Source: Sedimentisphaerales bacterium (GTDB taxonomy: Bacteria > Planctomycetota > Phycisphaerae > Sedimentisphaerales > Anaerobacaceae). From it: a stretch of DNA of 64,000 nucleotides. Below, one piece after another: positions 47,636 to 60,267 of this stretch. A program made the translations under genes and the position numbers. The notes below the pieces were generated by a model. The model saw only the letters and a program-made list of their open reading frames with translations, searched no databases and was not told the origin of the DNA. Numbering within the stretch: the stretch's first letter is position 1; each line of letters starts with the position of its first letter. The stretch is taken from positions 1 to 64,000 of the forward strand of contig JAFGDN010000019.1 of assembly GCA_016932095.1 (NCBI GenBank), given 5' to 3'.

Positions 47636-47992
47636 TTGATAAGAAAAATAAATCGCAAGACAAAGGCATTCGTCATAGCCGCCGCAAAACTGGCGGGCGA
47701 GCGTCATTGCACGGACGTCGTTGCCCTCGATATGCGAAAGGTCTCGCAGGTAACCGATTATTTCCTAATTCTAACGGGCACAAGCGACAGGCAGATGCGA
47801 AGCGTCGCCGATGAAATCACCGATTTGGCAAAAAAGAAGGGTTCCTCGCTTTTCGGCCGTGCCGGCTATGAGCAGGGCAAATGGGTCCTTTTGGATTTTA
47901 TCGATGCCGTTGTGCATATCTTTGACAGCCAGTCGAGAAGCTACTATGACCTGGAGCTCCTCTGGGGCGACGCTAAAAAATTGAAAATTTAG
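47636..47992 (+). CDS. rsfS: Ribosomal silencing factor RsfS
   Basis: 118 residues from TTG 47636 ([20 protein letters not shown]), with TGGAG 5 nt ahead. An earlier start at 47594 would lie within the hppA terminator stem, so I reject it. [19 protein letters not shown]-like sequence ([19 protein letters not shown]), [17 protein letters not shown], and [20 protein letters not shown] are the family core that binds L14 and blocks subunit joining. The last codons and stop (KLKI, TAG) lie in a heptamer array. Confidence 0.9.
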
Positions 47993-48008
47993 AATAAAGA
48001 ATTTAGAA
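47981..48008. repeat. Degenerate tandem heptamer array (4 units) at the end of rsfS
   Basis: Units TTGAAAA, TTTAGAA, TAAAGAA, TTTAGAA. The first two supply the last three codons and stop of rsfS; the array ends 19 bp before argS. Confidence 0.7.
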
Positions 48009-48026
48009 TTTTGCGGGTCGGTAGGG

Positions 48027-49841
48027 ATGCAATCCGTTCTTGACATTCTCGAAAAAAAAATTAGCTCAGTAATGGCCGAAGTAACGGGGCAGGGGGGCTG
48101 TCCCGCATTGGTCAAGCCCGCCACCGACCCCAGATTCGGCGATTACCAGGTCAACGGCGTTATGCCGCTGGCTAAACAGCTAAAGACAAATCCCCGTAAA
48201 CTTGCCGAGCAAATCGTCGCAAAACTCGTCGAGACATCGAGCATCGAGCATCAAGTATCGAGTATCGAGGTGGCCGGCCCCGGCTTTATCAACCTTCGCC
48301 TCAAACCTGAATTTGTCGCTGAAAACTTCTTACAGGTAAGCAAAGACCCCGCTCGCTTAGGTATCGAAAAGACCGAAAAGCCCAAAACAATCGTCGTCGA
48401 TTTCTCAGGCCCCAACATCGCCAAGCAAATGCACGTAGGCCACCTCCGCAGCACAATCATCGGCGACTGTATCTGCCGATTGCTCGAATTTGAAGGCCAC
48501 ACTGTCATCCGCCAGAACCACATCGGCGACTGGGGAACGCACTTTGGCATGCTGATATGTTATTTTTTTCAGAAATTTCCAGATGCATCTATTGAAAAAC
48601 TTGGGCCTTCTATTGGAGTTGTATCTGGAATTTCTGTTGCTGATATGAACATTCCTGATATGGAAGCGTTTTATCGTGAAGCTAAAAAGATCTATGATAG
48701 TGATACTGCCTTCGCTTCTAAATCCCGTGAATATGTAGTAAAACTACAAAGTGGAGACCCAAAAATATGTGCAATTTGGCAATTTATTCGCAGCCAATCA
48801 CTTTACTATTCTTATGATCTTTACCATAAATTAAATGTAACTCTTTCAGAGAAACATGTTCGAGGAGAAAGTGAATATAATAATGATTTGCCGGAAATAG
48901 TTAAGGAGTTGAAGAAGAAGGGGCTGGCTGTCGAATCGGAAGGGGCGATATGTGTTTTCCCTGAGGGATTTAAAGATAAAGAAGGCAAGCCCCTGCCTGT
49001 GCTCGTGCAAAAGTCAGATGAAGCATATTTGTATGCTACAACGGATTTGGCAGCGATTCGGTATCGGGTGGGTGAGCTAAAGGCGGATGAAATCATATAT
49101 GTTACCGATGCTCGGCAGAGTTTGCATTTTGATATGGTTTTCGCAGTAGCCGAAAAAGCCGGCTGGGCAAAACGGGAAATGCTGCATCACGTAACATTCG
49201 GCAGCGTTTTGGGAGAAAACGGCAAGCCGTTAAAAACACGTTCAGGCGAAAACGTAAAACTAAAAGAACTTCTCGATGAGGCCGTTGAGCGCGCAAGAAA
49301 AATCGTTAATGAAAAGAACCCTGTCTTGACTAAAGATGAAAAGGACAGGATTGCAAAGGCCGTGGGTATCGGTGCCGTGAAATACGCCGACTATTCCAAT
49401 AACCGCACAAGCGACTATATCTTCAGCTTTAACAAGATGTTAGCGATGGAGGGCAACACCGCCCCGTATATGCAATACGCTTATGCCAGGGTCAAGTCGA
49501 TTAATCGAAAAGGCGGGGAAAGGGGTATTGATGTTGAAAAGGAAATGGCCGGCTTGAAGGCGGTTTCGCTAACCGAACCAAGTGAATTGGATTTGGCCAA
49601 GCACCTTATTCGCTATGGCGAGGCAGTTGAGGCGGCATTGGCCGACTACAGGCCCAATTACCTGACAAGCTACCTTTACGACCTCGCCCAGAAGTTCAGC
49701 ACCTTTTATAACGATTGCCCCGTCTTAGATGCAGACCCCGACAAACGCCCGACGCGACTCTTGCTTTGCGACCTCACCGCCAGGACAATAAAACATGGCT
49801 TGAGCGAGCTTTTAGGTATCGAAGTTGTTGATGAGATGTGA
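48027..49841 (+). CDS. argS: Arginyl-tRNA synthetase, mosaic gene
   Basis: 604 residues. Class I synthetase: N-terminal Add1 domain, the HIGH box as MHVGHLRSTIIGD (about residue 137), class-defining DARQSLHFDMVF, and the C-terminal anticodon-binding helix bundle ending ELLGIEVVDEM. Two oddities are visible. First, SSIEHQVSSIEV at about residues 71-82 is encoded by five tandem heptamers. Second, 48550-48905 is distinctly AT-richer: I count 23 of 60 G+C at 48601-48660 against about 33 of 60 at 48421-48480, as if a segment had been replaced. The gene remains open and complete. Confidence 0.95.
   Translation: MQSVLDILEKKISSVMAEVTGQGGCPALVKPATDPRFGDYQVNGVMPLAKQLKTNPRKLAEQIVAKLVETSSIEHQVSSIEVAGPGFINLRLKPEFVAENFLQVSKDPARLGIEKTEKPKTIVVDFSGPNIAKQMHVGHLRSTIIGDCICRLLEFEGHTVIRQNHIGDWGTHFGMLICYFFQKFPDASIEKLGPSIGVVSGISVADMNIPDMEAFYREAKKIYDSDTAFASKSREYVVKLQSGDPKICAIWQFIRSQSLYYSYDLYHKLNVTLSEKHVRGESEYNNDLPEIVKELKKKGLAVESEGAICVFPEGFKDKEGKPLPVLVQKSDEAYLYATTDLAAIRYRVGELKADEIIYVTDARQSLHFDMVFAVAEKAGWAKREMLHHVTFGSVLGENGKPLKTRSGENVKLKELLDEAVERARKIVNEKNPVLTKDEKDRIAKAVGIGAVKYADYSNNRTSDYIFSFNKMLAMEGNTAPYMQYAYARVKSINRKGGERGIDVEKEMAGLKAVSLTEPSELDLAKHLIRYGEAVEAALADYRPNYLTSYLYDLAQKFSTFYNDCPVLDADPDKRPTRLLLCDLTARTIKHGLSELLGIEVVDEM
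48236..48270. repeat. Tandem heptamer array inside argS (5 units, translated)
   Basis: Units ATCGAGC, ATCGAGC, ATCAAGT, ATCGAGT, ATCGAGG. Because 7 is not a multiple of 3, the array reads as a 7-residue period (SSIEHQV then SSIEV). Confidence 0.9.
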
Positions 49842-49907: not shown

Positions 49908-50213
49908 ATGGCTTATTCACTTGAACAGAAAATGCCCAAAGATAAACTGGCCGAGTTTTGTAAAAAAAACTACATCAGGAAATTGTCCCTTTTCGGTTCA
50001 GCGGTTAGCGGTGAATTGAAGCCGGATAGCGACATAGACCTTTTGGTGGAGTACGAAGAAGGCCGGACGCCCGGGTTGTTTTCGATAATCAAAATGGAAA
50101 TGGAGCTGGCCGAAGTTCTCGGCAGAAAAGTCGATTTGCGAACCCCAGGCGACCTGAGCAAATATTTTCGCGACGAGGTGATGAGAAATGCACAACTTGA
50201 GTATCAGTCCTGA
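49908..50213 (+). CDS. MntA-type antitoxin nucleotidyltransferase
   Basis: 101 residues, AGGAGT ribosome site. The G-S-x10-D-x-D site is intact in GSAVSGELKPDSDIDLLVEY. MntA proteins neutralise HepT by adding AMP to a tyrosine next to the RNase site. The C-terminus (LREPGDLSKYF-like, DLRTPGDLSKYFRDEVMRNA) is typical. The gene overlaps its partner by 26 bp. Confidence 0.93.
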   Translation: MAYSLEQKMPKDKLAEFCKKNYIRKLSLFGSAVSGELKPDSDIDLLVEYEEGRTPGLFSIIKMEMELAEVLGRKVDLRTPGDLSKYFRDEVMRNAQLEYQS

Positions 50214-50535
50214 AGACAAGGTGAGATTAAGGCATATGCTGGATGCCGCGCTTGAAATCCGGCAATATGTGCAGTCCGCGACGCGCGAAGACCTGAATCG
50301 TGACCCTAAGCTGGTTCATTCGCTTGTTCATCTCCTTGAAATCATCGGCGAGGCAGCCAATCAAATATCGGATGAGCTTAAAGACAAGACACCTGATATT
50401 CCCTGGTTTATAATAATCGGGATGAGGAACCGGCTCATTCACGTTTACTTTGATATTGACTTAAACGTCGTGTGGAGCACTTCGACCGTTGATATTCCTG
50501 TGCTTATAACCGAATTGGAAAAACTTTTCGGCTGA
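50188..50535 (+). CDS. HepT-type HEPN toxin
   Basis: 115 residues, helical HEPN fold (RLRHMLDAALEIRQYVQSAT, IIGEAANQISDELKDKTPDI). The RNase motif R-x4-H-x-Y is exact in RNRLIHVY, where the Tyr is the AMPylation site for MntA. GAGG lies about 10 nt before ATG. Together with the preceding gene this is a complete type VII toxin-antitoxin module. Confidence 0.93.
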   Translation: MHNLSISPEDKVRLRHMLDAALEIRQYVQSATREDLNRDPKLVHSLVHLLEIIGEAANQISDELKDKTPDIPWFIIIGMRNRLIHVYFDIDLNVVWSTSTVDIPVLITELEKLFG

Positions 50536-59859: not shown

Positions 59860-60109
59860 CACAAGCGATGCCAGCGCATACTACTGCATACTAATGCTAA
59901 GTTGCGTTTTTAGCGTAAAAACGAGGATTTTCCTGCATATCATAACCTTGGCCATCTATGGTCATCTGTGGCTATCTGCGTTTTTAACTCAAAAATGAGG
60001 GTCGAAGAACACTGCTGTCAAAAAAGTAACAAAAACTGATGAAAATTGCTAAAAACAGCGTTGTTTTGCGTAAAAAAACGCTAATTTACCATGAAAACCT
60101 GATGTTAAA

Positions 60110-60137
60110 TTGAAAATAGAAAATCGAAAATTGAAAA
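60110..60137. repeat. Degenerate tandem heptamer array (4 units)
   Basis: TTGAAAA, TAGAAAA, TCGAAAA, TTGAAAA; the unit GAAAA part is constant and only the second base changes. Confidence 0.85.
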
Positions 60138-60267
60138 TTTGTCCTGTCCGCTGCGGGTATCGAGTGTCGGGCCGCGAACGGCGAGTTTTTACTTAACCCG
60201 GTCAAATTTTATGCCGATAGGTCGTTGAAACCCGGTGTATCCGGTGTTCCATATTTGGAGAAATGTA

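Follow-up and report, generated by a model that had tools for sequence, protein, structure and literature searches.

Why an essential bacterial gene should be translated through a run of seven-base repeats is the question raised by argS in a 64,000-nucleotide stretch (hereafter the window) of the genome of a Sedimentisphaerales bacterium (contig JAFGDN010000019.1, positions 1 to 64,000). Units of 7 bases are expected outside genes because each one shifts the frame. The argS gene (arginine--tRNA ligase; 48,027..49,841, forward strand) nevertheless carries an in-frame array of ATCGAGY-type heptamers between its N-terminal-domain helix and the GPGFINL stretch, as a preliminary description of the locus had stated. 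We asked what the array replaced, how widely such arrays occur, and what could have made them. The reading that we favor, with a probability of about 0.72, is that the tract in argS belongs to a lineage-wide class of dispersed heptamers made by a copying process with a 7-nt step.

The heptamer array and the argS site

The argS open reading frame (ORF) is uninterrupted, encodes 604 aa and scores 545.9 bits against the NCBIfam equivalog model TIGR00456 (cut-off 261.65). It contains the Pfam domains PF03485 (N-terminal, Arg_tRNA_synt_N; residues 8-92), PF00750 (catalytic) and PF05746 (DALR), and the class I signature HVGH lies at residues 136-139 and is invariant in a wider bacterial alignment (A1). 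This is the only ArgS match in the window genome (G000), a draft in 94 contigs that we compared with its congeners G001, G002 and G003 and with further relatives, taking one assembly per species. The heptamers occupy 48,229..48,270 on the forward strand, where six units (TCGAGAC, ATCGAGC, ATCGAGC, ATCAAGT, ATCGAGT and ATCGAGG) make up 42 nt. The preliminary description had counted five units and 35 nt at 48,236-48,270; those heptamers are real and in frame, but the full tract includes the unit before them. Tandem Repeats Finder reports 48,229-48,269 with period 7, 5.7 copies, 88% matches and a score of 52, the joint top score of the window. A length of 42, divisible by 7 as well as by 3, means that the six units on their own leave the frame undisturbed. 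Codons 69-82 (48,231..48,272, forward strand) read ETSSIEHQVSSIEV, within which SSIEHQVSSIEV is contained. Over these codons 25 of 35 positions are identical at a lag of 7, whereas 100,000 synonymous recodings weighted by the codon usage of the genome gave a mean of 10.3 and reached the observed value only twice (P = 2e-5). The period is more than an accident of codon choice.

An alignment of ArgS from the window species and 29 relatives shows what this place normally holds. A D-[ILM]-C-x-x-x-E-[IV] stretch ahead of AG[PA]GF is kept in 28 of the 29 relatives, mostly as LDxSDICExPEI, the sole departure being L017 with EFCTSWNV. In the window species codons 69-82 stand in its place before AGPGF. 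VETSSIEHQVSSIEV is confined to this species, and none of the 29 relatives carries the array residues, so the same residues written in non-repetitive codons, which would have spoken for chance, were not found outside the lineage. Heptameric DNA at the site is likewise found in the window species alone among the species compared. The stretch had been described as a linker of variable sequence, which holds across distant bacteria, where A1 gives the consensus LxxxxIxxxxEIAGPGF, but not within the order, where it is conserved as above.

Comparison with the congener G003 indicates how the array sits in the gene. The codons CTT GAC ATC AGC GAT ATT TGC GAG ACG CCT GAA ATA GCA of G003 correspond to CTC GTC GAG ACA TCG AGC ATC GAG CAT CAA GTA TCG AGT ATC GAG GTG GCC in the window; about 10 native residues are missing and 14 array residues are present, a net gain of 4 aa (12 nt). 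As judged from the aligned sequences, the array is a replacement in which some 30 nt were exchanged for 42. The earlier proposal of a 35-nt insertion with its phase compensated nearby must be given up: a clean insertion is ruled out by the absence of the roughly 30 nt, and the 42-nt tract is already frame-neutral. At the same site G001 and G002 hold a different, 18-nt addition that gives 6 more residues than in G003 (AAT TCC GCC ACG GCG GAC AAG CTC), an indel which shows that the site tolerates change. The ArgS of the window species is 73-75% identical to those of its three congeners, and the species is the deepest branch of the genus in our sample. Other repeat-like in-frame additions are seen in the argS genes of the relatives L002, L005 and L022 (GQALRQCSGQA, NSATAD, DSTHSTSSGQTSSPQA, RACGELVES and LRQAQGR), and the NSATAD addition in relatives is encoded by DNA with the palindrome TCCGCC-AC-GGCGGA.

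An AlphaFold2 model of ArgS built with 28 sequences (mean predicted local distance difference test score, pLDDT, 89.5) places a helix at residues 56-69, a loop at 70-76 and strands at 77-82 and 88-92, with a pLDDT of 85-89 for the array block. In this model the array peptide makes up both the loop and the entire predicted β-strand ahead of AGPGFINL (residues 77-82, VSSIEV, encoded by 48,255..48,272 on the forward strand) in the Arg_tRNA_synt_N domain. The array had been thought to fall within a linker; the loop is indeed included, but the predicted strand that follows is encoded by it as well.

Arrays across the genome and in other core genes

Similar arrays are dispersed through the genome. 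The ATCGAGN pattern occurs at about 20 places in G000, with 54 matches at up to 3 mismatches as against 8 for the reversed pattern. Across 161 genomes of the order, an exact 20-mer was found in 27 of the 89 genomes from the same taxonomic family and in none of the 72 from other families, whereas its reversed control gave 2 matches, both in one genome. A tandem-repeat survey of 769 kb of G000, sampled as stretches, yielded 25 segments at lag 7 and 20 at lag 14, compared with 1-6 at each of the remaining lags (2 to 24). After Markov shuffling, the sample gave 1 segment at every lag, presumed to be a run of N. With a lower threshold we collected 46 arrays of period 7 or 14, whose units belong to A/T-rich (AAATTGA, AAATAGA, TGATTAT), GACAGAA/GACGGAA, ATCGAGY and CGTCGCT/ACGAGCG families. 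Unit pairs at most one mismatch apart numbered 107, against a mean of 22 (maximum 37) for random 7-mers and 49 (maximum 68) for letter-shuffled units, and exact pairs numbered 27, against 1.1 and 3.3. That so few unit families account for the 46 arrays points to spread or to a sequence-biased generator rather than to independent slippage of random seeds.

ORFs of 150 aa or more contain only 17 of the 46 arrays, although they make up 84% of the sampled DNA (shares that are approximate, as ORFs were called by a simple greedy pick of long frames), and genes are therefore strongly depleted of arrays, yet not free of them. The (ATCGAGC)n repeat has no stop in any of the six frames, its two strands giving IEHRASS and ARCSMLD, so that it is translatable in every phase.

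Several core genes carry arrays in frame, often with different sequences at the same site in related species. In truA of G000 an ATCGAGY array occupies a linker; at that place its congeners have residues unrelated to it, most genomes of the family have none, and G007 and G011 have NTQY-type stretches. In murF, G000 again has an ATCGAGY array, and G001, G007 and G017 have SHESRVTSHS-type peptides at the same place, that of G001 being encoded by a GAGTCAC-like heptamer. In valS, G000 has a CGTCGCT-type array (PSLVARRSSLAEEL) with similar ones in G017 and G032, and most other species have EHLxEKFGxGL. The site in purL holds a GACAGAA-type array in G000 and G001 and an ATCGAGY-type array in G003; G002 has another, GC-rich stretch there, and non-repetitive PELTEPSIPEK-like residues prevail elsewhere. 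A 28-nt stretch is identical between the G003 purL array and the G000 argS array. In an SDR gene (G000:C43:103785-104762), EDRRQ-type repeats contribute some 50 residues in G000 and also in G002, and are absent from G003 and the other genomes compared. More in-frame arrays of G000 lie in mutL, waaA, proA, lnt, a multihaem-cytochrome-like protein (named by eye) and others, and pattern matches fall inside genes of other genomes of the family, including a LexA-like gene in G001 and a MurE-like gene in G011 (both named by eye). The argS array is one of many of its kind in core genes, which the preliminary description could not have seen.

Some related loci are added here as observations. The valS frames of G002 (L224) and G003 (L226) encode 993 aa and that of G012 (L234) 1282 aa, against 957-960 in other relatives, and the G012 protein has an extra stretch in the same linker. 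The ATCGAGY-type array of G001 (L067/L088, G001:C4) is in frame in a 241-aa LexA-like protein (identified by eye), before GIPLVGRVAAG. A sigma-factor-like protein, also named by eye (G000:C43:90164-91213), ends in a C-terminal tail of EDRRQ-type repeats; it and the SDR locus lie on the argS contig, outside the window.

Origin and persistence of the arrays

We propose that, in this family of uncultured planctomycetes, a copying process with a 7-nt step, such as out-of-register or template-switching DNA synthesis, creates and spreads the arrays, assisted by arrays elsewhere in the genome. Most copies would persist between genes; a copy within a gene would persist only if it were stop-free in the frames that it traverses, if the net change in length were divisible by three and if that part of the protein were tolerant. 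At argS, a frame-neutral 42-nt ATCGAGY array would have displaced the 30 or so nucleotides encoding the stretch ahead of AGPGFINL. The native residues may have been lost by template switching that dropped the interval or by an insertion followed by an in-frame deletion, in one step or in several, and the exchange was probably neutral for ArgS function.

Some points weigh against this proposal. We identified no donor copy, no duplicated target site and no enzyme. The 28 nt shared with the purL array of G003, which we do not count as proof of copying, may reflect the drawing of the same common unit variants. The window species stands on a long branch, along which a series of small events is possible, and native codons such as GAC ATC AGC GAT ATT TGC GAG may themselves have seeded ATCGAG units. 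A bolder form of the proposal, in which an active, sequence-biased generator of 7-nt arrays keeps rewriting loops of essential proteins, would bring together the alternation of heptamers at one site, the replacement of native residues and the structural part that some arrays appear to play (the ArgS strand); we regard it as tentative, and rather doubtful as it stands. Were it true, such a generator would systematically supply proteins with new segments made from stop-free repeats.

The alternative that survives best is a local origin, by which slipped-strand mispairing enlarged an ATCGAG-like seed that happened to be present among the native argS codons, and repeats did not spread between loci. 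Earlier work found heptamers to be the commonest longer class of simple repeats in most of the prokaryotic genomes that it covered, and one proposed origin is polymerase slippage with a contact length of 7 nt (both as summarized in PMC4679880); the congener codons ATC AGC GAT ATT TGC GAG offer a possible seed. Slippage of random seeds, however, would not return to a handful of heptamers across dozens of loci, nor would it give ATCGAGY strings that are nearly identical between G003 purL and G000 argS, and slippage adds only 7n nt and leaves the native residues in place, so that their loss from argS requires something more. We consider a purely local origin unlikely. Ku-dependent end joining with filler DNA is also an unlikely maker: Ku had no match in G000, G001, G002 or G003, and was present in 2 of 61 relatives.

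A further alternative is that the peptide itself came under selection, as a structural part of ArgS or as one that touches the tRNA, in keeping with the well-predicted strand that it supplies to the Arg_tRNA_synt_N domain. The peptides SSIEHQVSS and SIEHRESS, however, are shared with the products of purL, truA and further genes, whose folds are unrelated, and the use of different heptamers at one site by sister species argues against selection for a particular peptide, which makes this very improbable. Still less credible is a contingency locus, in which a changing number of heptamers would toggle argS or alter the enzyme through frameshifts. Heptanucleotide repeats do act as phase-variation switches in other genes, for example neuO of E. 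coli K1 and hmw of H. influenzae, but argS function is essential, with one ArgS match in G000; slippage would be damped in so short and imperfect an array (88% matches); and similar arrays stand in murF, valS, purL and lnt, genes whose silencing would kill the cell or leave it auxotrophic. The last alternative, that codon choice by chance or faulty assembly produced the array, could cite the draft state of the genome, but is contradicted by the recoding result and by the same kind of arrays in open frames of several independently assembled genomes.

Known repeats and the surroundings of argS

Dispersed heptamer arrays are known from other bacteria. The short tandemly repeated repetitive (STRR) sequences of filamentous cyanobacteria are likewise short tandem arrays scattered through the genome, with heptanucleotide units reported from Calothrix (PMC4692102), and the G000 arrays resemble them in their tandem 7-nt units and in the return of the same unit families at loci that are unrelated to one another. 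Their hosts, however, belong to a distant phylum, and the sources that we found place them between genes, as between hupS and hupL (PMC2670836), or in an RNA gene, that of RNase P RNA (Vioque 1997, by its title as cited in PMC4748335); the likeness is one of description, not of compared unit sequences, and we claim no membership. The TAACTGA direct repeats of Beggiatoaceae (PMC4679880) are also genome-wide heptamers limited to certain lineages, but they have stops in forward orientation, whereas the planctomycete units form several families, some stop-free and translated. The GGGAATC and GGGGAYT arrays of Xanthomonas and Nostoc (PMC4692102) are similarly dispersed and depleted in coding regions, but can form G-quadruplexes, whereas no G-run is present in ATCGAGY. 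Rickettsia palindromic elements (RPE) are small repeats found in frame within unrelated metabolic genes (reviewed in PMC10969869). They are palindromic units of about 150 bp that resemble miniature inverted-repeat transposable elements (MITEs) and encode a conserved peptide, whereas the argS tract consists of 42 bp of tandem 7-mers that replace native residues between ordinary argS codons, with no terminal inverted repeats, and so does not belong to the RPE or MITE class.

While dispersed heptamers and in-frame repeats are thus known, we found in the open-access literature no paper on heptamers in genes of Planctomycetes or Phycisphaerae and no report in which heptamers replace loops of essential proteins throughout a family of bacteria. 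One paper that deals with frameshifting protein repeats has nothing on such replacement. One bacterial family with heptamers in frame in core genes, and different ones per site in sister species, offers a natural series in which to measure how repeats turn into protein. It also carries a warning that core-gene alignments from these genomes include repeat-derived stretches carrying no ancestry.

Other heptamer arrays lie in the window as well. An AATTTAG-type array (47,986..48,011; period 7, 3.7 copies, score 38), a second heptamer family of G000, covers the end of the preceding ORF and the gap before argS, and the repeat calls include an intergenic AAATTGA-type array at 60,107..60,139. Elsewhere in G000, two intergenic arrays, L041 (G000:C92) and L042 (G000:C2), have in common a non-heptameric spacer, GTAACTACAACGGACGATGC, adjoining the heptamers; a larger mobile cassette, considered on the strength of this spacer, was rejected, as the G000 sample held no more good copies. 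A plasmid search with the repeat peptide returned just weak matches, to a Borrelia protein, and an Rfam scan around argS detected no RNA families.

Within argS itself, residues 161-280 (48,507-48,866) have a GC content of 0.33-0.42 and a third-position GC content of 0.17-0.40, compared with roughly 0.5 over most of argS. Identity to the congeners is low there, and residues 201-240 are nearer to G017 (65%) than to the congeners (35-55%); the segment is possibly a mosaic one. Directly downstream of argS, at 49,908-50,535, two small ORFs resemble by eye an MntA-type nucleotidyltransferase and a HepT-like partner, and the pair may be a toxin-antitoxin system.
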